A DNA stretch of 55,230 bases from positions 1 through 55,230 of the forward strand of contig NZ_MTAV01000174.1 in assembly GCF_002154695.1 (NCBI RefSeq). The letters run 5' to 3'. Shown here piece after piece: positions 15,999-52,032 of this stretch (position 1 is its first letter; each line of letters begins with the position of its first letter). The DNA comes from Nostoc sp. T09. Lineage in GTDB: Bacteria > Cyanobacteriota > Cyanobacteriia > Cyanobacteriales > Nostocaceae. Both the position numbers and the translations under genes were made by a program. The notes below the pieces were generated by a model. The model did no database searches, was not told the origin of the DNA, and saw only the letters and a program-made list of their open reading frames with translations.

Positions 15999-18900
15999 CT
16001 AGGGCTTGTGGGTAATAGTCTCGCAAAGAAGGCGATCGCGTTGGTCAACATTAGGGTTGTGTTTGAGGTAATCATCAACCCAGTTGCAACCACGCAGCAG
16101 TAGATCATCAATATCCAAGTTCCACAGAATGATCGTGTTGTCATCACCAGCCGAAGCTAAAGTTTGACCATCAGGACTAAAACTGACACTTAATACTGCC
16201 CCCTGATGCCCAGTGAGGGTTTTAATCAGTTTGCCCTCACGGCTCCAGAGTTTGACTGTACGGTCCCAACTAGCAGCAGCAAGCAATTCACCATTAGGAC
16301 TGAAAGTAACAGCATTCACGCTATCGCTATACCCCTTTAATAAGGTTTTTAACAACGTACCGTCCCGTCGCCATAACTTCACGGTGTTGTCCCAACTAGC
16401 AGAAGCTAACAACTGGTCAGTGGGACTAAAGCTCACACCTAACACCCAACTATCTTGAGGTGAGAAAGTTTTCAGCAAGGTACCATCCCGCCGCCACAGT
16501 TTTATGGTTTTATCATCACTAGCAGAAGCTAAAACCTGACCATCGGGGCTAAAATTAACGCTATTTACCCAACTATTGTGCCCAACCAAAGTTGTGAGCA
16601 AGCGACCATCACGGTTCCAAACTTTCACTGTTTTATCTTTACTGGCTGAGGCAATAAATTGTCCATCTGGGCTGAAAGTCACGCTCATGACGCTATCGCT
16701 ATGCCCAAGGAGGGTTTTCAATAAAGTGCCATCGCGCCGCCACAATTTCACAGTTTTGTCATAACTGGCTGAAGCTAGCATTTCACCTTGGGGATCAAAA
16801 CTCACACTTGGGACTTTATCTAGATGTCCCAGCAGAGTCTTGTAAAGCCGAGTTTTCACATCACTGCTTTTGGTATCTCGCTGCCAGAGTTTCACTGTGC
16901 GATCGCGACTGCCAGAAGCCAATGTTTGACCATCTGGACTCCAAGCTACGCTCAAAACTCTACTTGTATGCCCTTTGAGGATAGGTAGTATTGGAGCATC
17001 TAGACGCCACAATTTGACGCTTTTGTCATAACTTGCTGATGCTAGGAGTCTGTTATCTGGGCTGAAAGCTACACTAGCAACAGCATCACTGTGTCCTTTA
17101 AAAGTGTTCAGTAAGGTGCCCGTGGCGCTCCAGAGATTAATAGTATTATCATTACTTCCGGATGCCAGAAGTTGACTATCAAAACTGAAATTTAGGCTCC
17201 AAATTATATTGTTATGCTGCTGTAAAGTTTTGCTAGGACGAAAATTAAAGCTGTTTTTACTACTATTGCGCTCTCTGCGCCAAAGTTGGATTGTTTTATC
17301 TCTACCGCCAGATGCAAGTAGTTGACCGTTGGGGCTAAAAGCTACAGCAGTTACACCTTGCCGATGTCCCTGCAAGGTGGATACTAATCTCCCATCTCGT
17401 CGCCAGATTTTTACTGTTTTATCTTCACTAGCTGAGGCAATAAATTGTCCATCTGGGCTGAAGGTTACCCAGTTAACCCATCCTTGATGTCCTCTGAGGA
17501 CTTTGACCAAACTACCATCCTTACGCCAGAGTTTGATGGTTGCATCCTTACTCCCGGTAGCCAACAACTCGCCGTCAGGACTGAAACTGACGCTATAAAC
17601 CCAATCTCCATGTCCTTCAAGGGTTGTGTATGGCTGTGGGTTAAATTCACCTGTAATTGCATTTTTGTGCCAGATTTGCACACTTTTATCTAGGCTGGCA
17701 GAAGCTAATGTTTGACCATCAGAGCTAAAACTCACGCTGGTGACAGCATCGCTATGACCTTTGAGAGTTTGTAGCAAAGTCCCGTCAGGACGCCACAGTT
17801 TTACCGTCCTATCCGTACTACCTGAAGCCAATAACTGACCATCAGGACTGAAAGTAACACCCCAGACAATATCACTGTGCCCTTCTAAGCGATTTTGCTC
17901 TTTAATACCATAAACAGCTTGTTGAAGGGCTGTTACCACCCGCATTTTCGTTTCTGCTTGCACTCCATCTGCCTGTTTTAGTCTTTTCCAAGCCCGCAAA
18001 CTTTCTAATAGGGCATCAAACTCTTTATTGGACGCAAACAGAGCCTCGCTTGCGGCAGTAATAGCACTAATTTTAAAGTTAGTTTCGCTACGTTCGGCTC
18101 TCAGAGTTTGGCGAATTGCGGCTCTTCTCTGTAAGTCAGCTTGCCACCATAATACTGCTATTGCTCCGGCCATCATTGCCAGCGCTCCGCCTGCTATGCG
18201 TGCTTCTCGCAGCCGCCGTTGCAAAACCAAATTAAGCTGTTCTTGAGAGAGCTTTTGCGCTACTTCTGCTCTATCTTTTTCAAATCTAACTTTTTCTAAT
18301 TCAGCGACCATGCCATAATTGTTTTTTTGCCGAATCGGTTCAACTAAGTAATCGTGAACAAGCTGGTAGCGATCGCCTAACTCTTCTGGCTCTCGTAACA
18401 CTAGTCCCGACCCTACCAAAATTTCTAAAATAAATTCCCAAGACGAGTCAAAATTAGATATTGCAGCAAAATTATTCCCTAGAGCAACAGCTAAATCAGC
18501 TTTTGTTTTTAGAGGCCTTGTGCCTTTTTCATCAGTTAATTCCAACAATAATTTCCAACTACGCTCTTCGTTTTCCTGCCCACAATCTTTGATAACTTCC
18601 TCAAGCCAGCGTTCAACTAATTTTGCCGAGCTGCCACACAGCTTGTATTGTGCGAGCGTAGTAATATTTTCTGCTTGCAGTTGAGCACCAACTATCTGTA
18701 GCTCAATTGGATGTACTTTATCTAGTTCTCCTGCTAAATCATTTACTAATTGGTTAATTAACTCATCAGTTATTTCATAATGTGAACGTTTAGTCAGGCT
18801 CTGGATAATATTGATTGCATCATCACGGTCAAAATTCCCTAAATAGTAGCGAATATCTTTATCTAAGATGTTTTTATTAATTACACCCAAATCATATAAA

Positions 18901-21026
18901 CCATCACTGTTTTCTTTGCTTAAACGCTCAAATTCTAATAAGTAATGTAAATAATCTTCACGAATTGCTAAAATTATTTTGACATACGGAATGTTTAAAC
19001 ATTCGCTAAAAAACTTATAAAATTGGATTTTCTTTTCAGGAGAGGTACTAATAAAGAAAAATTCTTCAAACTGGTCAAAAATAATAATTACTGTGTGATT
19101 GCGTTCAGAGGCTAAACGGAGTTTTTCAATCAGTATAGTTGGGGTAATTTCCAGATTAGCTGACATTTCTGTCTGTGCCATTACTTGATTAACATTGCGC
19201 CCCAATGCTGTGACCCAATCTGTATAAACAGATAAAACAATTGGTAAAGGAATACGTTCACCAATAACTTTTCCTTTCAAAGCTGGTACTAAACCAGCTT
19301 TGAGAATTGAACTTTTACCTACACCTGATGGTCCATGAATTACCGTAAGTTTGTAGTCGGCACGAGTAATTCGTTCAATCAAACGCTTAACATCTTGTTG
19401 CCGCCCAGAAGCAGCTATTTCCTGAGCCACTTCCTCAGGAATAAACGGTATTTTTTGCGGCTCTAGTACCGGGTTAATCCTGTAGCGTTGTGGCTGCAAT
19501 TGACTGGCTCCAATAAAAGCGCGAAAGCCGTACTGATGTTCTATTTGAATTTTTTCTTGTTTCAGGCTAAAGGCTTCTGTATAGTTATGACGCTCAACAA
19601 AGTAAAGCGATCGCAACTCTTCTAAAATTTCCAAATAAAGCGATGGTTCATACTGTAGTTCACAAACCACTCTTGCCCATTCTAAGTTATTGATGGCTTC
19701 TTCCCACTCACCTAGATGACGTTGTGTACGCGCCAATAATAAAAGATACCAGCTTTCCTGCCGACGAGAAACTTCTGTTGCCAGTTCTGCAATAGAAAGT
19801 GCCGTATTCGCTAGCTCATGAGCTAGTATCCAATTTGACTCAGAAGCTGCCACATCTGCTAGAAAGCCATAATCTTGGGCAACCTGAGCAGGATCACCAT
19901 AAGTTTCGTGCAAACTTAAGGATTTTTGGGCTAATTCTTCTAATTCTTCCCAATTTTGTAAGCGTTGCAGCATTTCGCAAGCAGGTAATATAAATTTGGC
20001 AACTAAGTCTTGTCTTTGCGCCTCCTCTAAAATTTCCAAGCATTTCCTAAACCACAAAAGAGCATCCTGCCAATACTTGCTATCAGCACCTTGGTATAAA
20101 TCTGCCATCCGGCGGTAACACAGTCCCAGATGAAATATAACTACTGCTTGCCGAAGAAGTGGTGGGGATGGCAACATTGGCGGATGAGGGGAATAAACTT
20201 CTAAATTCTCTTCTAAACCCCTAAATCCACTCTCTTCTGAACCCACCTGCTGCCAAAGTTCTAAGCTTCTTTGATAGTGAACTAAAGCATCATTAATTTT
20301 ATCATTGGCGTATTCATCACGCCCTAATACAAATTCTAAACTTGCTTCTAATTCTGGATCTAATTTGACACCATATAGGCGCAGCAAATCACTACGAGCA
20401 GACTCAATTTCACGGCGATTTTGCGACTTTGGAGCTAAATCAAGTGCATCATTAGATAAAAATTTATCAGCACCTGCTTCTAAAACCTTAGCAAATAAAG
20501 ATTCTGTTTCTTGCCGGATCAAAGCAATTAAATACTCTTTTGCTAATTCAAATTTAATTGTAGTTGCAGCCCAGCTTTTAAAATCGGGCGCTAACCTAGA
20601 AAGCATTGATGCCACTTCATCTTGTAGCCAAAAAATCAATGGAAAAGGAAAAGTAGCGGCATAGATATCTCTTGCTTGATTTGCACCAGCCAGAAAATTA
20701 TCGAGAGTGATAATGGACTCTAGCCCAAAAACCATCACAGCTGATGGCAAAGTGTCTTTAACAACCACAGGATGATCTAAAAATAGTTCTGTGATTATTT
20801 GAGTATGTAAAGCATTAGTTGATGGCTGAAGAAATATCTCTCTAATATTTATGTCTTTGGTGAGTAAGCGGAGATTACCCAACATTTGCTCACGTAATTG
20901 CCCATAGTTGCATCGGACTAAAATCAAAGCAAATTGGCCTTTGGAGAGCTTGATTGCTCGAATCATCCTTTGTAAAGCATGCTGATTTTCATTGACGATA
21001 GCTGCTGTGAATTGCCACTTTGTCAT
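15999..21026 (-). CDS. Giant STAND NTPase: pseudo-AAA domain, TPR-like repeats, nSTAND1 ATPase, WD40 propellers
   Basis: A 1675-residue signalling ATPase. In order: (1) residues about 1-200, a domain resembling an AAA/STAND fold without a P-loop (where a Walker A would be it reads FALILVRCNYGQLREQ) but with a Walker-B-like strand (AVMVFGLESI); (2) about 215-510, TPR-like helical repeats; (3) about 545-930, an nSTAND1 ATPase with Walker A GPSGVGKSS near 564 and Walker B VIIIFDQFEEFFF near 644; (4) a hydrophobic helix near 940-958 (GGALAMMAGAIAVLWW); (5) about 1046-1637, fourteen WD40 repeats, enough for two seven-bladed propellers. STAND proteins act as ligand-triggered switches in which repeats sense and the N terminus signals. 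It follows an AAA ATPase gene on the same strand, 366 bp downstream, suggesting an operon. Target and output are unknown. Confidence 0.9.
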   Translation of the reverse strand: MTKWQFTAAIVNENQHALQRMIRAIKLSKGQFALILVRCNYGQLREQMLGNLRLLTKDINIREIFLQPSTNALHTQIITELFLDHPVVVKDTLPSAVMVFGLESIITLDNFLAGANQARDIYAATFPFPLIFWLQDEVASMLSRLAPDFKSWAATTIKFELAKEYLIALIRQETESLFAKVLEAGADKFLSNDALDLAPKSQNRREIESARSDLLRLYGVKLDPELEASLEFVLGRDEYANDKINDALVHYQRSLELWQQVGSEESGFRGLEENLEVYSPHPPMLPSPPLLRQAVVIFHLGLCYRRMADLYQGADSKYWQDALLWFRKCLEILEEAQRQDLVAKFILPACEMLQRLQNWEELEELAQKSLSLHETYGDPAQVAQDYGFLADVAASESNWILAHELANTALSIAELATEVSRRQESWYLLLLARTQRHLGEWEEAINNLEWARVVCELQYEPSLYLEILEELRSLYFVERHNYTEAFSLKQEKIQIEHQYGFRAFIGASQLQPQRYRINPVLEPQKIPFIPEEVAQEIAASGRQQDVKRLIERITRADYKLTVIHGPSGVGKSSILKAGLVPALKGKVIGERIPLPIVLSVYTDWVTALGRNVNQVMAQTEMSANLEITPTILIEKLRLASERNHTVIIIFDQFEEFFFISTSPEKKIQFYKFFSECLNIPYVKIILAIREDYLHYLLEFERLSKENSDGLYDLGVINKNILDKDIRYYLGNFDRDDAINIIQSLTKRSHYEITDELINQLVNDLAGELDKVHPIELQIVGAQLQAENITTLAQYKLCGSSAKLVERWLEEVIKDCGQENEERSWKLLLELTDEKGTRPLKTKADLAVALGNNFAAISNFDSSWEFILEILVGSGLVLREPEELGDRYQLVHDYLVEPIRQKNNYGMVAELEKVRFEKDRAEVAQKLSQEQLNLVLQRRLREARIAGGALAMMAGAIAVLWWQADLQRRAAIRQTLRAERSETNFKISAITAASEALFASNKEFDALLESLRAWKRLKQADGVQAETKMRVVTALQQAVYGIKEQNRLEGHSDIVWGVTFSPDGQLLASGSTDRTVKLWRPDGTLLQTLKGHSDAVTSVSFSSDGQTLASASLDKSVQIWHKNAITGEFNPQPYTTLEGHGDWVYSVSFSPDGELLATGSKDATIKLWRKDGSLVKVLRGHQGWVNWVTFSPDGQFIASASEDKTVKIWRRDGRLVSTLQGHRQGVTAVAFSPNGQLLASGGRDKTIQLWRRERNSSKNSFNFRPSKTLQQHNNIIWSLNFSFDSQLLASGSNDNTINLWSATGTLLNTFKGHSDAVASVAFSPDNRLLASASYDKSVKLWRLDAPILPILKGHTSRVLSVAWSPDGQTLASGSRDRTVKLWQRDTKSSDVKTRLYKTLLGHLDKVPSVSFDPQGEMLASASYDKTVKLWRRDGTLLKTLLGHSDSVMSVTFSPDGQFIASASKDKTVKVWNRDGRLLTTLVGHNSWVNSVNFSPDGQVLASASDDKTIKLWRRDGTLLKTFSPQDSWVLGVSFSPTDQLLASASWDNTVKLWRRDGTLLKTLLKGYSDSVNAVTFSPNGELLAAASWDRTVKLWSREGKLIKTLTGHQGAVLSVSFSPDGQTLASAGDDNTIILWNLDIDDLLLRGCNWVDDYLKHNPNVDQRDRLLCETITHKP

Positions 21027-21193
21027 AAGTAAGAACTGGGCTAGAAAGGAAGAATAAAAAATTACACATCAAGCAGCAACCAGAATACTTGCCAATACTT
21101 GGTTTTGCATTTTGCGAAAAGTTTCCAAGAGAAGCCACTACATTAGTGGCTAGCGGTAGCGAGGCACGAGCGTCCCCTTAAGATTCTGGGGAG

Positions 21194-21382
21194 CTAATGC
21201 GTTGGGTGGGTGGCTCTGCGAAAACCCAAAGGATAGTAAGTGGTGCGGTTATCTCCATCAAAGACGCTAAAAAGTTTGCCTTGCTTGTAGACAACGTAGC
21301 CGCTTCCTGTCATCTGGCATAGGTTACCCGAGTTAGAGCAAGTGGATAACTTTTCTTGAACTAGCAACCTTTTCAAAAACAA
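21194..21382 (-). CDS. Possible small protein between the AAA and STAND genes
   Basis: A 62-codon frame beginning 11 bp after the AAA ATPase stop on the same strand, so translation could be coupled. The middle part (LCQMTGSGYVVYKQGKLFSV, then FDGDNRTTYYPLG) has protein-like composition, whereas both ends look less natural. The stretch just downstream (21120-21190) is filled by a repeat-like GCCACTACATTAGTGGC palindrome. I do not recognise the product; it may be a real third component of the locus or a chance frame. Confidence 0.35.
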   Translation of the reverse strand: MFLKRLLVQEKLSTCSNSGNLCQMTGSGYVVYKQGKLFSVFDGDNRTTYYPLGFRRATHPTH

Positions 21383-21392
21383 TTTTGAATTG

Positions 21393-22724
21393 TTATTTGT
21401 TTTGCTGCCAAGTCAGGACTTTTTCTGTTTCTGCTAATGCTGGACTAATACCAAACCAGCGTCCTTGAGGATCACGGTATTCAAACAAATACATACTTCG
21501 CAGTAAGCTCTGGTAGTCAGACTCGCCTTTCACACTTTGCTGCTGCACTACTTCAAACAGTAATTTCCATTGATATTCATCAATAGCTAGTAGCAGGTCA
21601 TCTCGGTAGTCTTTAATTACGGCTTCTAAGCATTCTCTAGAGAAAGGCGGATCTTGCCGTTGTAAGCAACTATAAAGCAAACCTAATAAATTACGAATAT
21701 GACCGCCACTGACACGGCATATACGACCTAAGGTGTCTGGGTGATCGAATAAATCTGTAATTAATAAAGGTCTTTCATTCCAAGGAATTTCTGGAAAAGC
21801 TCTTGCCAAAACTAGCTGGCGCAATAGCGACATCCCTGGTTCATAGTCTTCACCATCTCTTTGTCGCACCAAAACCATCGGCAATACTTTGGGCGCAATT
21901 CCTCCTCCCAAGCGATTTTTCAAAGTTTCATACTCATTAGAAAAAATTAAGGCTAAGGGAATTGTGTAAACTAAGTGGCATTTAAGTCGGCGTAACTGCT
22001 CACCTCGATCGATAAAAAGATACTCTGGTTGCGTCCGCCCAGATGCTACAGGCCGCATATCAACCCGATCTAAGTTATCTACAATTACTACCAATCCTTT
22101 TTGACCACGTTGCTTGAGCTGTTCAACAGCTTTTTCTAGTATCTCCTCGTTAATTGCTTGCAAAATACTGTTAGTACGTGGCTCCAGATATTGTCTCAAT
22201 TGATTGCGCATCTGAGCACTATCTTTAGTTTTGGCAGTAATTTTGGCAATGCCTAAAGATAATTCCGCTTGTCCTGATAACTCTATAGGGGTTTGCAAAA
22301 AATCCCCTATTTCTTTAAACAAATTGTTAAAGTAACCTGGTTTGAGTTTTACACCGATCCCTTCTAAACTGACACTGACTTGACGAGCTACACTCAGCAA
22401 AATATCACTGATATCGATATCTGCCATATCTAGGTCTTGGCTGGATTCAAAATAAACTACATGGAATCCTGCTACTTCCAGCTCTGCCTTGAGACGTTGC
22501 AACTCTGTGGACTTACCACAACCAATATGACCCGTAAATAATTGGCAGGTTGGCTCATCTGGAGAAATACGGCTGATAGTACGTTGTAATTCTTCAACGA
22601 TCTTGCAACCACGTACATCAGAGAAATCTATATAGTACTGCTTATCCAGTACTTCGCCCATATTTAGTGTGTAGCTTGGGTTACATGCTTTATAAAAACG
22701 TGACAAATTTAGTGTCGTTCTCAT
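21393..22724 (-). CDS. AAA-type P-loop ATPase, partner of the downstream STAND gene
   Basis: A 443-residue ATP-binding protein. Walker A is GHIGCGKST at residues 65-73 and Walker B LVVIVDNLD at 211-219; further features are YFESSQDLDMADIDISDILL (about 91-110), HLVYTIPLALIFSNEY in the sensor-1 position and a helical C-terminal domain (GRICRVSGGHIRNLLGLLYS, about 340-360) like the winged-helix part of archaeal/Orc1-like or STAND ATPases. No transmembrane segment. It lies directly upstream of, and on the same strand as, the giant pseudo-AAA/TPR/STAND/WD40 gene. Its ATPase core is intact while the N-terminal domain of the neighbour lacks a P-loop, so an active/inactive pair is conceivable. Function unknown. 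Confidence 0.85.
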   Translation of the reverse strand: MRTTLNLSRFYKACNPSYTLNMGEVLDKQYYIDFSDVRGCKIVEELQRTISRISPDEPTCQLFTGHIGCGKSTELQRLKAELEVAGFHVVYFESSQDLDMADIDISDILLSVARQVSVSLEGIGVKLKPGYFNNLFKEIGDFLQTPIELSGQAELSLGIAKITAKTKDSAQMRNQLRQYLEPRTNSILQAINEEILEKAVEQLKQRGQKGLVVIVDNLDRVDMRPVASGRTQPEYLFIDRGEQLRRLKCHLVYTIPLALIFSNEYETLKNRLGGGIAPKVLPMVLVRQRDGEDYEPGMSLLRQLVLARAFPEIPWNERPLLITDLFDHPDTLGRICRVSGGHIRNLLGLLYSCLQRQDPPFSRECLEAVIKDYRDDLLLAIDEYQWKLLFEVVQQQSVKGESDYQSLLRSMYLFEYRDPQGRWFGISPALAETEKVLTWQQNK

Positions 22725-23705
22725 GTAGATGCAGATGTAGATTTAGATGCGGTTTTATTTGTATCTTTTGCTATGCAAAATCTCTATGTAATATAGAGGT
22801 GCAGAATTAACTCATTCACAATTAGTTTTTACAGGATACAGCTCTCAAAGCGGGATCGCTGCAAATAGCTGTCAGTAGAATGGTATATATCCAGTTCTTG
22901 CTTATACGTTAAGTGTATCTGTCCTTTTTACAGCTGCTGTGAAGCTTTTGACAATCTATAACCTTTACTTGATGTAGCAAAAAGCCTGATGCTGAGTTTA
23001 TATGTAAAAAAGTTACTATCAAGTCCAGATTTAGAATTTAATCCTAGATGCTATGCTTAACACTTAAGCCGCTTTTTGTCAAAAAAATTAAAATATTTAT
23101 ATTTAAATTAATATTTTGTAATTGTCTGCAAAAAAACTGAGATGTCTAAATGTTGTAAATGACACTTAGTGATGTTTAAATAAATGGCACTGAATTAACG
23201 AGTCAGTTGAACACAAAAATCGTGAAACAAGGCGTGATAAAGTTTTTTAGATAAATTTTTCTTGATTTATTTTTATTCCTATAGCGGTTTATCTTAGGAG
23301 CATTCAGGTTTGATACTTGGAAAAATATTTAATTTTGCTATGATTCAGATCTTGCAAACATAAAATTATCGCTTCCAAGTTATAACCGTATAAGTACTGT
23401 GCCATACCTAAAATAAATACAGGTAGATTAGTATAGATTTTAAGCCATTCAATGTAGCTTTTATGGCTCATAGTAGCTGTCAGCCTACTATAAAATGTTA
23501 CATGCAGGCAGGCTACAATAGACACCGCTAAGTTTCCATTGAAACTTCCTTGCGCCACAATCCTGGTGTACTTGCTGTAAAGTGTTACTAAAAACTGAAA
23601 ATAATATTGAGAAGAGCGGTTAGAAGATGCCGACAGAGGTTTACTGAAATTATTTAACGATCCGAGGGTAACAACAACTTGGACTGGAATCAGAAAGAGG
23701 TGTAA
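22725..23705. other. Long intergenic region before ftsQ
   Basis: About 980 bases holding the divergent promoters of the AAA gene and ftsQ. The stretch 23040-23290 is very AT-rich. An 84-codon minus-strand frame at 23304-23558 has a hydrophobic middle but no ribosome binding site that I can see and no recognisable family; I leave it out as a gene. A clear AAAGAGGTGTAA ribosome binding site sits directly before the ftsQ ATG. Confidence 0.5.
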
Positions 23706-24551
23706 ATGGCTGGACTACTATCACTTTCCCGCACGGATTTAGCCCAACGCCGTAAAAAATTACGGAGACAGCAGCAGATGAAAATTATTCAGGCTCTTTG
23801 GCGTACCTTTGCTATTAGTAGTCTGGCAGGATGTTTGCTGTGGGTGGCAATCCAACCAATGTGGGTACTAAATGCTCCCAAACAAATTGTCATGAAATCA
23901 GGTAACCAATTACTGTCAGATGAGACGATTCAGTCACTGTTGATGTTATCCTATCCCCAATCTTTATGGCGGATTCAACCGTCGATTATCGCTGACTCTT
24001 TAAAGCGACAACCAACGATTGCGCAAGCGAGCGTTACTCGTCGTCTATTTCCTCCTGGATTAATTATTGAAATCAAGGAAAGAGTACCTGTAGCGATGGT
24101 TCAAACTCATAAAAGTGGAAATACTGACAGCACTAGTAAACAAGTATCTGTGGGTTTAGTAGATGCAAGTGGAGTTTGGATGCCTTTAGAAAAATATATA
24201 TCGCTGAATCCTACTGGAAAATTGCCCACTCTCAAAGTAATTGGGTCGCCAGAGCAATACCTACCTCATTGGACTCAACTGTATTTATCAGTGAGCCAAA
24301 GTTACGTAAAAGTCATGGAAATTGATTGCCAAGATCCAACAAATTTAATTTTGAAAACAGAAATAGGCAATGTCCATCTTGGTCCACCGAGTTCTCAATT
24401 ATCGGAACAAATGAAGATCTTGGCTCAAATGCGCCATTTACCCAGCAAGTTAAATTCTAGCCAAATAGATTACATTGATCTTCAAAACCCTGAAAATCCA
24501 TTAGTACAATTGAACCAAAAAAAAATGAAGGTTAATTTTCAAACTCCCTAG
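23706..24551 (+). CDS. ftsQ: Cell division protein FtsQ (DivIB)
   Basis: A 281-residue bitopic divisome protein. After a basic cytoplasmic N terminus (RTDLAQRRKKLRRQQQMK) there is one transmembrane helix at about residues 30-52, then the POTRA domain from about 57 to 127 (NAPKQIVMKSGNQLLSDETI through LFPPGLIIEIKERVPVAMVQ) and a beta domain to the C terminus. These are the standard FtsQ/DivIB parts. FtsQ recruits later divisome proteins to the FtsZ ring; ftsZ follows on the same strand, the order known from cyanobacteria, though here a gap of 1.3 kb intervenes. The start has a good ribosome binding site (AGAGGTG). Confidence 0.92.
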   Translation: MAGLLSLSRTDLAQRRKKLRRQQQMKIIQALWRTFAISSLAGCLLWVAIQPMWVLNAPKQIVMKSGNQLLSDETIQSLLMLSYPQSLWRIQPSIIADSLKRQPTIAQASVTRRLFPPGLIIEIKERVPVAMVQTHKSGNTDSTSKQVSVGLVDASGVWMPLEKYISLNPTGKLPTLKVIGSPEQYLPHWTQLYLSVSQSYVKVMEIDCQDPTNLILKTEIGNVHLGPPSSQLSEQMKILAQMRHLPSKLNSSQIDYIDLQNPENPLVQLNQKKMKVNFQTP

Positions 24552-25898: not shown

Positions 25899-27188
25899 AT
25901 GACACTTGATAATAACCAAGGGCTTACCTATAAAAATTCCCAATCTGTGGGACAGTCAGGATTCTCACTGGCTGTTAACTCGACTAATCCTTTTAATCAC
26001 TCTGGGCTTAATTTCGGACAAAATCATGATGGTAAGAAGATTACTGCTGAAAGTAACAGAATTGGCGAGATTGTTCCGGGTCGAGTTGCCAACATTAAAG
26101 TGATTGGTGTGGGTGGCGGTGGTGGTAATGCCGTTAACCGCATGATTGAGTCAGATGTCAGTGGAGTAGAGTTTTGGTCAATTAATACTGATGCTCAAGC
26201 TTTAACTCTAGCAGGTGCTCCTAGTCGGTTACAAATAGGACAGAAACTAACTCGTGGTTTAGGTGCAGGTGGTAATCCTGCTATTGGTCAAAAGGCAGCT
26301 GAGGAATCACGGGATGAAATTGCTACAGCTTTGGAAGGTGCTGACTTAGTATTTATTACCGCTGGTATGGGAGGTGGCACGGGAACTGGTGCAGCCCCAA
26401 TTGTTGCAGAAGTAGCAAAAGAAATGGGTGCTCTCACTGTCGGCGTTGTGACACGTCCATTCGTGTTCGAGGGACGCCGCCGTACTAGTCAAGCAGAGCA
26501 AGGCATCGAAGGGTTAAAAAGTAGGGTGGATACGCTGATTATTATTCCTAACAATAAACTTTTGGAAGTGATACCCGAGCAAACGCCTGTGCAAGAAGCG
26601 TTTCGGTATGCGGATGATGTACTCCGCCAAGGGGTACAAGGTATTTCTGATATCATCACAATTCCTGGGTTGGTAAACGTTGACTTTGCCGATGTTAGAG
26701 CTGTAATGGCAGATGCAGGATCGGCATTGATGGGAATAGGCGTTAGCTCTGGGAAATCAAGAGCTAGAGAAGCAGCGATCGCTGCTATTTCTTCGCCTTT
26801 ACTAGAATGTTCTATTGAAGGAGCCAGAGGAGTTGTTTTTAACATTACTGGTGGTAGTGACCTCACCTTGCATGAAGTGAACGCTGCTGCTGAAACAATC
26901 TATGAAGTGGTTGATCCCAACGCCAATATTATTTTTGGAGCGGTGATTGATGACAGGCTTCAGGGTGAAGTACGCATTACTGTAATTGCAACTGGGTTTA
27001 CAGGTGAGCTACAAGCAGCACCACAACAAACTGTAGCGAATACAAGAGTTACAACACCCCCTCCAAAGCGGCCTGTGTCACAGCCACCTGCTGCTAGCCC
27101 TCCAACACCAATTGCAGAGCCAAAAGAAAAACCTGTATTAGATATTCCTGATTTTCTCCAACGGCGGCGTACCCCACCAAAGAATTAA
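25899..27188 (+). CDS. ftsZ: Cell division GTPase FtsZ
   Basis: The tubulin-like GTPase that polymerises into the Z ring. The 429-residue product carries the usual long N-terminal extension of filamentous cyanobacteria (about 60 residues, Asn/Ser/Gly-rich), then [18 protein letters not shown], the tubulin signature GGGTGTG at 158-164, [11 protein letters not shown], the T7 loop [11 protein letters not shown] and, after a Pro-rich linker, the C-terminal peptide DIPDFLQRR that binds partners such as SepF/ZipN. All GTP-binding motifs are intact. It follows ftsQ on the same strand. Confidence 0.98.
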
Positions 27189-49041: not shown

Positions 49042-52032
49042 TTAAGGTAAATCTACAGGCACAGTCGGTTCATCTTCTTGGCTTTCAATTAACCCGATAT
49101 TAAGAATATTTTCCCCATAAATATCTGTGTTTGCCGCAGAATTAAAGCTACTTAGGGGAGAGTTCTCTGACACGAACCGTTTCAAGCGTTGAAACTCTTC
49201 TAAAGAGAAAATAGCACCATTTAACATTGCATATTCTTTCTGCACTTCTGATACAAGAGAATCACATAAACAGGTGTAGGTGAAGTTTGCGCCTGTGAAG
49301 TTTGCGCCTGTGAGGTTTGCACTTGTGAGATTTGCGCCTGTGAGGTTTGCGCCTGTGAGGTTTGCACCACTTAAATTCGCGCCGATGAGGTTTGCACTTG
49401 CTAGATTTGCATCTGTAAGGTTTGCACCAGCTAAATTCGCACCCATCAATGCTGCTTCTAAGAAATTAGTTTGTCTGAGATTTACCCTAGCTAACATCAC
49501 GTGTAACAAAAATGCCCCCGACAAGTTGATACCAGCGAGGGAATGGGATCTGACTCGTTTTGTAAAAGCATTTACGGATAACACTGCTGTTCTACCAATT
49601 AGCATGAACAGCGCTTGGGGATTAAATTCTGCTAAATTTTTATGATTTCCACAAGGTGAAAAAGAGACTTTAGCTACGCGATCGCAAGCACAAAGTAATA
49701 AAAATAAATTGAGTCCTACGACTGCATTTATTTGTTCGATATTAATAGGGTTTTGCAGGGTATGGAAATAAGTCAAAGCTTTGTGTGCTATACCCTCCTC
49801 TAACCAACGACCTTGACAGTAGTCACGCCAGAAAGACTCAAGACGTTGAAACAACACTTCAAAGGAAAATTGCCACTTTTGCTGACGGCGCAATCCTTCG
49901 ATCGCGAGTGCTTCTATTTCCTGACTGAGAATACCGTAACCGAGTAAGTTGTAAAGGTGCTGGGCAACACTAGAGGGAGAGTCAAGAATGAATGTAGATT
50001 TACTATCAGCTGGTTCTTGACGCTGAGTTAGGATTTTCAATTGGGCAGCAATAGCTTCAGCGCAAAGATATTCCCCTAAATTAGGGTGAGTGAATTCAGT
50101 GCTAAGTAATGAATGCTGGCTTCTAAAATAAAAAGTCGGTAGGGTTTGAAGAGAAAATTCTTTAGATAAATTTATTTTAGGGCGATCGCTGTGTAAAATC
50201 TGGAGAGCGATCCCCTGCATTTGCTCAAGTAAATCTTGGGGATGGCGATTAGAAAGTAAATTGGCGATCGCTTCTGGTGTACGGTGGATATGAGCCGACC
50301 CTGAGCGCAGGAGCATTGTTTTTGTACCACCTGTGAGCGGATAGCCCAACAACCATCGATTGAGACGATGGTAAATTTCCCATAACAGAGGTGCGCTTGT
50401 AGCTTCTTGGGAATTAGCAGCTAATTGTAATATTTCCTCATCCAACAATCCGTCACGGTGTAGCACACCTAACAAATACAGCATCAAAGGTTGGCGGACT
50501 AAGGCGGAGAGTTGTGGTAACTTTGATTTTCTGAGAAATAACCCTGCCTGTTTTAAGAACGTAAAGTAATTTTGAGCTACGGGCAAAGATTGTACTGTAG
50601 TCCATTGCTGAAACCAATATCTGAGATCCTCTACATCCAACGGCTGGATGGTAATTCTTTTCAATTGCTGTGGTAATGCGGGGGCAATTTGCTGTAAAGT
50701 TTCTGTCCGACTCGTCAATAAAATTTTATGTCGTCCTTGCAACTGCAAGTTCAGCAACTCTTGAATAAAAAGCTCTTTTGCCCTGTTAGCTTGCTTAGTT
50801 GGCGGTAGTTCATCTAAACCATCAAGCAGCAAAAGACAGCGAGGATGATCTTGCTTTAACCAAGTAGCAAAATTTAGCTGTAAATCTAGTGGAAAAACTG
50901 AATTTAGGGTTGCTACTAAACTTTGACCGTATGTTATGTCTCGCAGCCGAATCAGAATCGGCATCCAAGTAGGATAAAGTTCCCATGCTACCTTTGCTGC
51001 CCAAATTTGGCAGAAACTAGTTTTACCATAACCAGGTTCCGCTTCAATTACAGCAATAGTTTCTAAATCAGCTAGCTGTTGCTGCGCCCATGCTTGTAAA
51101 TCAATAGAAGAGCCAATTTTTTGACCTTGCTCAAAACTACTTTCCTCCTGTATTGGCAAACCTTTGAGGGGAACATAGATATCTTTGAGAGCAAAGGATT
51201 CCATAAATAACGGTTGACCGAGGCTTTGAAGTAACCTAACTCGGTAACTCTCTCTATAAGCATCAATTTTGTCATCTATTGTAGGGCTGTGAGAGCTTTC
51301 TACTAGTTCAGCTTCTAGGGTGACAGAATTGGATGGGAAGGAATTTCCTAAACGGACAAATTTTTGTAGTTGGGCTAGAGGCGCAGGATTCTCCGCAATA
51401 ACTTTCAGCAAATAACCAGGAAGTGCGTGTGACAAACGCTGCGTTAACAGTTTCGCCTCAACCTCCTCTGCACCATTAGCAACAAACCAACCTATAGCCA
51501 CATTATTGATTTGTTGTACCAGGAATGAGTCCGCTACCAAAGAAAGTGCTTGTTCCGCTTGAGTGTCAGTTAGTTTTCCTGGGTTGAGTGTATTTAACAA
51601 CTCATGCAGGTGAGCGCTTTGGAGGGAAGATTCGGCTTTTTCTCTTACACCCTGATTCTTGATAATTGCTCGATCTAACCAAGGTTTTTGCAGGCTGACT
51701 TCCTGATCTAGAACTTGTTGCAAACTATGAAGATAGGCAATTTGAAATACTAGCCATGTACCCTCATTACGTTTTAAGGGTTTTTTTTGGCTGAGATAAC
51801 GTAGTAGATTTTCAGTCAAATGAGCAATATCGGTAATTTCTTCCCAAACAGCTTTTAGAGGTAGTTCCAATACCTCTGTTAGGGTACAAATATCAAATGG
51901 CATCAGGCTTTTAACTTCCATGTCCTGAACAATACGGTAGGCAACACCTGCCATTTGCCCCACTGACAATCCACTAAGGCTGTGTATTTCGATACAGTTT
52001 TCCGCTAACCAATGCCGAATATGAAGGTTCAT
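49042..52032 (-). CDS. NACHT-family NTPase with pentapeptide repeats
   Basis: A 996-residue STAND ATPase. Residues about 1-270 are helical and unassigned; the NACHT domain occupies about 320-560 with Walker A EPGYGKTSFC near 330-339, Walker B CLLLLDGLDELPP near 397-409 and the sensor strand HKILLTSRTETL. A helical region with NLGEYLCAEAIAAQL follows. From about 850 to 917 there are at least eleven consecutive pentapeptides of the A(N/D)LxG type (GANLAGANLTDANLASANL), which fold as a right-handed beta-helix; their DNA is a visible 15-bp tandem repeat near 49280-49480. NACHT proteins often sense invaders or stress, with the repeat part as sensor. No partner gene is evident; its start is 133 bp from a divergent DUF3685 gene. 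Confidence 0.9.
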   Translation of the reverse strand: MNLHIRHWLAENCIEIHSLSGLSVGQMAGVAYRIVQDMEVKSLMPFDICTLTEVLELPLKAVWEEITDIAHLTENLLRYLSQKKPLKRNEGTWLVFQIAYLHSLQQVLDQEVSLQKPWLDRAIIKNQGVREKAESSLQSAHLHELLNTLNPGKLTDTQAEQALSLVADSFLVQQINNVAIGWFVANGAEEVEAKLLTQRLSHALPGYLLKVIAENPAPLAQLQKFVRLGNSFPSNSVTLEAELVESSHSPTIDDKIDAYRESYRVRLLQSLGQPLFMESFALKDIYVPLKGLPIQEESSFEQGQKIGSSIDLQAWAQQQLADLETIAVIEAEPGYGKTSFCQIWAAKVAWELYPTWMPILIRLRDITYGQSLVATLNSVFPLDLQLNFATWLKQDHPRCLLLLDGLDELPPTKQANRAKELFIQELLNLQLQGRHKILLTSRTETLQQIAPALPQQLKRITIQPLDVEDLRYWFQQWTTVQSLPVAQNYFTFLKQAGLFLRKSKLPQLSALVRQPLMLYLLGVLHRDGLLDEEILQLAANSQEATSAPLLWEIYHRLNRWLLGYPLTGGTKTMLLRSGSAHIHRTPEAIANLLSNRHPQDLLEQMQGIALQILHSDRPKINLSKEFSLQTLPTFYFRSQHSLLSTEFTHPNLGEYLCAEAIAAQLKILTQRQEPADSKSTFILDSPSSVAQHLYNLLGYGILSQEIEALAIEGLRRQQKWQFSFEVLFQRLESFWRDYCQGRWLEEGIAHKALTYFHTLQNPINIEQINAVVGLNLFLLLCACDRVAKVSFSPCGNHKNLAEFNPQALFMLIGRTAVLSVNAFTKRVRSHSLAGINLSGAFLLHVMLARVNLRQTNFLEAALMGANLAGANLTDANLASANLIGANLSGANLTGANLTGANLTSANLTGANFTGANFTYTCLCDSLVSEVQKEYAMLNGAIFSLEEFQRLKRFVSENSPLSSFNSAANTDIYGENILNIGLIESQEDEPTVPVDLP

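Follow-up and report, generated by a model that had tools for sequence, protein, structure and literature searches.

A contig of 55,230 nucleotides from Nostoc sp. T09 (C126, NZ_MTAV01000174.1; "the window" denotes this whole stretch), part of a host genome of 8.25 Mb, carries two neighboring minus-strand genes that belong to a paired protein family. The upstream gene, P0002 (21393..22724), encodes a protein of 443 amino acids (aa), here termed ACT, a predicted active AAA+ ATPase of the ORC/STAND type whose C-terminal part is helical and winged-helix-like. The downstream gene, P0001 (15999-21026), encodes a protein of 1675 aa that begins with a putatively inactive AAA+ domain without a P-loop, here termed DEAD (residues 1-165; 20532..21026). 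Behind DEAD lie TPR-like helical repeats (residues ~200-500; 19527..20429; TPR_12, 48 bits), an nSTAND1 NTPase (residues ~541-895; 18342..19406; 113 bits) in which the P-loop GPSGVGKS and the motif FDQFEE are both intact, a hydrophobic helix (residues 942-960; 18147..18203), and 14 WD40 repeats (residues ~1046-1640; 16107..17891), a number sufficient for two seven-bladed propellers. An earlier note on this DNA had described the same succession of an intact ATPase and a multidomain protein, and its open reading frames (ORFs), motifs, and domains were confirmed. The hydrophobic stretch, the only one of its kind in P0001, has a mean hydropathy of 1.61, and the maxima at this region range from 1.14 to 2.19 across 18 orthologues; any membrane linkage of the protein would depend on this single, borderline helix. 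Domain scans found no effector enzyme domain in P0001, and an Rfam scan of the window gave no match at the gathering threshold.

A motif check verified both Walker motifs of P0002, GHIGCGKST (A) and VVIVDNLD (B), and an alignment of 56 sequences shows no variation at the key Walker A residues or at D216. Among 195 ACT sequences, 188 have the Walker A pattern and 189 a Walker B-like pattern. The AlphaFold model of P0002 has a predicted local distance difference test score (pLDDT) of 93.7, and its ten best fold matches include ORC2, Apaf-1, the archaeal Walker-type ATPase PABY2304, Cdc6, and CED-4, with template modeling (TM) scores of 0.26-0.41 when normalized by query length. According to this model, P0002 is an intact AAA+ ATPase of the STAND/ORC clade with nucleotide-binding, helical, and winged-helix parts, and ATPase activity is predicted. 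Domain and fold searches found no effector or sensor domain in it. A sequence search of the PDB with ACT gave weak matches to the SRP receptor (5e-4 over 49 residues) and DNA polymerase III gamma (0.009). P0002 also resembles the KAP-family NTPases in that it scores above the Pfam cut-off (PF07693, 28 bits against a cut-off of 20), and its Acaryochloris homologue is annotated as one. KAP NTPases have membrane helices inserted in the P-loop domain; P0002 differs in having no such hydrophobic membrane insertion (its highest 19-residue hydropathy is 1.09) and in a fold closest to ORC and Apaf-1.

The DEAD domain of P0001 (residues ~1-165) lacks a P-loop, yet its model contains a five-strand AAA+ core (pLDDT 83.6) whose best PDB fold matches include RAD17-RFC, ORC, MuB, and RuvB among other AAA+ proteins; a PDB search by sequence yielded nothing convincing. 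Residues N116, R119, D148, F149, and W152 are invariant in a 57-sequence alignment. In a wider set of 157 domains R119 is conserved at 98%, and none of the 157 contains a P-loop pattern. As modeled, DEAD is an inactive AAA+ domain. Free-standing DEAD proteins of ~166-176 aa with no adjoining ATPase gene occur at six loci, one of them in the host genome itself (contig C210, locus L036, 7026-7526), where M50 peptidase-like and GHL10 hydrolase-like genes are also present. Five of these six loci have neighboring genes in common, so the free-standing form appears to be a conserved single gene, which might function in trans or be an inhibitor.

All seven P0002 homologues in the host genome lie directly 5' of a protein that starts with DEAD, and the pairing there is therefore not due to chance. 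Five of the seven partners carry nSTAND1 and WD40 (one is split into two ORFs and two leave the contig), and the other two carry TPR only. The break in a P0001 paralogue on contig C264 (locus L033, 0-3867), which now reads as two ORFs, lies within its nSTAND1 part, and this copy is apparently decaying. Profile searches with ACT (E 1e-5) and DEAD (E 1e-3) were extended to a phylum sample of 292 genomes, with at most five ACT candidates scored per genome, a number that many genomes reach. ACT was found in 69 genomes and DEAD in 68; both occur in 65, against about 16 expected (overlap counted from the match lists), so that the two co-occur in genomes more often than chance. Among the 150 ACT matches listed, DEAD lies directly downstream on the same strand in 130, and is lacking in 15; five end at contig edges. 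The 130 pairs comprise 102 from the listed DEAD matches and 28 among 48 fetched loci, the rest of which are the 15 solo and five contig-edge cases.

The two proteins have also diverged together. The ACT and DEAD distance matrices of 157 neighbor pairs are correlated with a Mantel r of 0.891, whereas reshuffling partners within genomes, a control that preserves species history (25 genomes, 65 pairs), gave an r of at most 0.74 in 2000 trials. The correct partner was retrieved for 59 of the 65, against a mean of 23 and a maximum of 29 in 20 reshuffles. Trees and matrices left out within-genome duplicates of one gene, ACT sequences below ~330 aa, and DEAD sequences below ~115 aa. At two loci (L117 and L200), one in genome G024 and one on a Calothrix plasmid, a protein with two DEAD domains is accompanied by two ACT genes. 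The second ACT at each ends in a TIR domain (110 and 116 bits), and that of the Calothrix plasmid has no match to the Walker patterns used. These TIR-ending genes (L117, 3236-5326; L200, 10357-12450) adjoin the normal ACT and the double-DEAD protein; by eye, a short helical C-terminal part without a Pfam match resembles an effector-associated domain. The pairing of ACT and DEAD is real: adjacency (130/150), co-evolution, and co-duplication bear out the earlier note's proposal that the separate ATPase belongs with the P-loop-less N-terminal domain, and the locus accordingly has NTPase modules of which two are active and one is inactive, as the note had counted.

The pair is not confined to cyanobacteria. 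In a breadth scan of one named genome collection, the best 79 loci of a list of capped length comprise 67 pairs, seven contig-edge cases, four with short ACT only, and one with a full ACT and no DEAD. Pairs outside the phylum come from records labeled Competibacteraceae, Contendobacter, and Methylococcaceae (Gammaproteobacteria), Thermoflexus (Chloroflexota), and Acidobacteria gp4 (Acidobacteriota); an archaeal pair occurs in a Methanothrix bin. Because the non-cyanobacterial records are metagenome bins, single cases may be misplaced contigs, although in the Methanothrix bin DEAD was matched twice, on two contigs. A search of the phylum to which the Thermoflexus genome belongs showed ACT to be scarce there, with matches at E 1e-10 in 8 of 251 genomes.

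What follows DEAD varies widely. Partner modules were taken from Pfam scans of 45 proteins that were picked in part because their length was unusual and in many cases cut short behind DEAD, and thus are not a random sample. Among the matches listed, 18 of the 45 contain nSTAND1, and one of the 18 ends in a PAS-histidine kinase-receiver series. In two more (L201 and L162), whose match lists stop at 25 families, nSTAND1 was recognized by eye. NACHT is present in four, combined with DUF4062 and FGE in one, with HEAT in another, and with cNMP-binding and cyclase domains in two; CHAT is present in one; and 20 have TPR only, of which two fall under the Pfam cut-off and some are cut by contig ends. 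The modules behind DEAD are interchangeable and include TPR, nSTAND1-WD40, NACHT, CHAT, histidine kinase, and cyclase. Some ACT/DEAD copies are plasmid-borne, and one of those examined was typed conjugative. On a plasmid of Nostoc sp. C057 (locus L199, 6207-9131), an ACT-like domain is fused behind a SAV_2336-annotated protein that by eye is vWA-like, next to MoxR and an FGE-type gene. Two other loci (L152 and L154) contain ACT followed by a stand-alone DEAD of 163 aa. Some 360 bp past this DEAD they encode a very long protein (1924 aa in L152), possibly a third component, whose make-up by eye is serine/threonine kinase-STAND-GAF-PAS-histidine kinase.

In the window, P0002 shares a divergent intergenic region of 981 bp (22725..23705) with ftsQ (POTRA_1; 23706..24551, plus strand), the FtsQ of Anabaena being Alr3857 (PMC6391411), and ftsZ lies further along (25899-27188). 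Ten near neighbors were scanned; they include psbO, a sigma factor, ftsQ, ftsZ, gshB, and an HflX-like GTPase, and two further ones have no Pfam match. The presence of psbO and of ftsQ and its relatives assigns the contig to the Cyanobacteria. Comparison of coordinates places ACT head-to-head with ftsQ, 161-1704 bp apart, in 27 of the 69 ACT genomes, from eight families. In the midpoint-rooted ACT tree, built without four of these 27 genes (G167, G068, G101, and G203), the 19 tips tagged as ftsQ-adjacent fall in one clade (support 0.916; 35 tips, 32 distinct genes), and by coordinates 23 of its 32 distinct genes adjoin ftsQ. Plasmid and dispersed copies within this clade are as expected if the place at ftsQ is ancestral. 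On the opposite flank, psbO lies within about 7-9 kb in eight of nine genomes of the host's own family and in none of 11 outside it; these 20 genomes were selected for ftsQ adjacency, so the figures compare flanks and do not give an unbiased rate. The window copy looks like an old resident, inherited in place. A second subfamily of the pair, with TPR only, is located near gshB in 13 loci, some of which are also near ftsZ, so two subfamilies can flank one division cluster; in two loci (L178 and L179) HflX was seen by eye between them. Some 26 kb from the pair, the window also encodes a 996-aa NNH3-NACHT-pentapeptide protein of NACHT receptor architecture (49042-52032, minus strand).

The propellers were compared across 18 orthologues of P0001, 17 of them ftsQ-adjacent and one (G191) not. 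All 18 align over DEAD, TPR, nSTAND1 with its P-loop, the hydrophobic region, and WD40; WD40 identity to P0001 (0.49-0.82) is similar to that of nSTAND1 (0.46-0.81). The propeller face was defined as the two positions of the repeat with the greatest difference from blade to blade, which we take to be ligand-facing. The comparison covered 12 own-family sequences (P0001 and 11 orthologues) and seven orthologues from outside the family. Within the family, orthologues match the face of the corresponding P0001 blade at an identity of 0.50-0.93; comparison with the other blades gives 0.07-0.10. The sequences therefore support a fixed propeller ligand within the own family only, and a fast-changing sensor was rejected for that family alone, as face residues are kept there.

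Several described systems resemble this one in part. The closest in idea, likened here by description rather than by sequence, is nSTAND2, presented by Kaur et al. (eLife 2021; PMC8195603) as a two-gene operon of active and inactive STAND modules with eroded NTP-binding motifs in one. In that account the eroded-motif gene is fused to variable modules, most often GT4 or HEPN, both modules have a conserved arginine finger, a toroidal hetero-multimer is proposed, and the system is called mobile. ACT and DEAD are likewise adjacent genes, each with a STAND-like module, one without NTP-binding motifs. A candidate finger is confined to the DEAD side, where the near-invariant R119 may take that place in a complex. 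Relative to what that account describes, GT4 and HEPN are both absent among the matches listed for the 45 DEAD partners, and the window copy is chromosomal and syntenic with ftsQ. A GT4-conflict family model, considered as a bridge to nSTAND2, matches 13 of 14 control genomes and hence does not discriminate. The iSTAND ternary systems (Kaur et al. 2020; PMC7159879) and iSTAND2 (PMC8195603), as outlined in those papers, also combine an inactive STAND module with an active ATPase and exchangeable effectors and are enriched in multicellular bacteria. They are described as requiring MoxR and vWA partners, and neither was found among 20 window neighbors scanned; the C057 plasmid fusion is the likeness to iSTAND elsewhere. 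With nSTAND1-WD40 proteins and Apaf-1-type STAND receptors P0001 shares a STAND switch and a C-terminal WD40 double propeller, and it differs from them in its extra N-terminal dead AAA+ domain and the separate active ATPase gene. The earlier note had called the system a candidate undescribed one. This holds insofar as no paper on the ACT/DEAD pair or its ftsQ link was found among open-licence full texts, and it fails insofar as nSTAND2 is a similar two-gene system of active and inactive STAND modules with variable fusions.

Taken together, adjacency, co-evolution, co-duplication, the folds, module exchange, the conserved locus, and the propeller face count for a modular two-protein ATP switch, the window copy of which most likely senses an endogenous ligand or state rather than taking part in a phage arms race (probability roughly 0.57). 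ACT and DEAD would form a mixed AAA+ assembly in which DEAD is a non-hydrolyzing subunit that couples its partner protein to ATP turnover and R119 may act in trans on the ATP bound by ACT. The module fused behind DEAD-TPR would be the receptor or output gated by the switch. In the window copy, nSTAND1 would be a second switch and the double WD40 propeller a ligand sensor, as the WD40 repeats of Apaf-1 sense cytochrome c (PMC7159879). By analogy with Apaf-1, ligand binding may free nSTAND1 to oligomerize, with the ACT/DEAD part setting the threshold or resetting the assembly. The contact of ACT with DEAD, control of the ATPase, the ligand, and the output are all predicted. Several observations weigh against this reading. 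With 366 bp (21027..21392) between the two genes, co-expression of the pair is putative. Besides the 15 solo ACT genes among 150, several DEAD proteins are also solo, so pairing is not obligatory in cis. A pair split in trans was considered for eight f6 genomes, in each of which an ACT match and a long DEAD match lack a listed partner; the loci fetched there comprise six solo DEAD and seven solo ACT, of which one ends with its contig, and sequence matching of solo ACT to solo DEAD was unable to separate solo from paired DEAD. Outside the own family, the seven orthologues have a same-blade face identity of 0.25-0.36, against 0.07-0.12 for other blades, and whole-repeat identity barely exceeds that of unlike blades. 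A face kept within the family and drifting beyond it is more in keeping with a resident ligand than with a rapid arms race, without proving it. Finally, the CHAT, NACHT-HEAT, NACHT-FGE, and cyclase fusions, together with the TIR domain of a second ACT, are features typically found in conflict systems.

These conflict-type fusions favor an immune role for the family at large, and such a role is likely for some of its members. For the window copy, an immune system in which recognition of a phage component by the propeller of an ACT/DEAD switch leads to arrest or death of the cell is a serious contender, albeit on balance doubtful. The ACT-like domain in the MoxR and vWA-like cluster of the Nostoc plasmid, the plasmid copies, one of them conjugative, the many genomes with five scored copies, and the drift of the propeller face between families would all suit it, as would two weak matches of P0002 in PADLOC, one to PDC-S20 at 24 bits and one to mad8 at 21 bits. 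A further PADLOC match, to HEAT-ARM_XIII, covers the WD40 repeats. Set against these are the absence of a confident PADLOC system at the locus, of an effector enzyme in P0001, and of any match among phage records (one query, with a C161-type ATPase only), the blade-face residues kept within the own family, and inheritance in place among core genes. No defence island or mobile element was found at the window pair; since its near neighbors are core genes, the defence-island reading was rejected for this copy, and the defence role raised by the earlier note is not supported for it. The same neighborhood invites the idea that the ftsQ-linked copy is a cell-division or envelope checkpoint that monitors the state of the septum or envelope and acts on division. 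The arrangement with ftsQ across eight families, the 23 of 32 clade genes that keep it, the lack of psbO on the opposite flank in all 11 of the genomes examined beyond the family, and the position of the TPR-only subfamily close to gshB and ftsZ at several loci agree with a checkpoint, but adjacency is heritable without a functional link, all 27 arrangements may descend from one, nine of 32 clade members are not at ftsQ, and ftsQ is found in 197 genomes of the phylum sample against 69 for ACT, so this role seems unlikely. Quite improbable, too, is a broader proposal in which DEAD is a universal socket driven by one ATPase, with receptors, proteases, kinases, and cyclases plugged in from cyanobacteria to Chloroflexota, and the ftsQ-linked copy is a division or envelope checkpoint with an apoptosome-like double-propeller receptor watching the septum. 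That ACT and DEAD are two unrelated multi-copy STAND-like families, neighbors by coincidence, would account for the solo members in both; repeated adjacency across phyla and co-duplication oppose it, and because the mirrored trees beat within-genome reshuffles, it can be given very little credence.

Pseudo-ATPase partners of STAND switches have earlier been put forward on the basis of sequence, and no experimental test of them was found in the literature searched. The ACT/DEAD family offers many paralogous pairs, a clean co-evolution signal, and co-duplicated members, and its minimal versions (ACT of ~440 aa and DEAD of ~160 aa) are suited to biochemistry. Given the conserved link to ftsQ, gene deletion offers a direct test of whether the pair has a part in the division of cyanobacterial cells.

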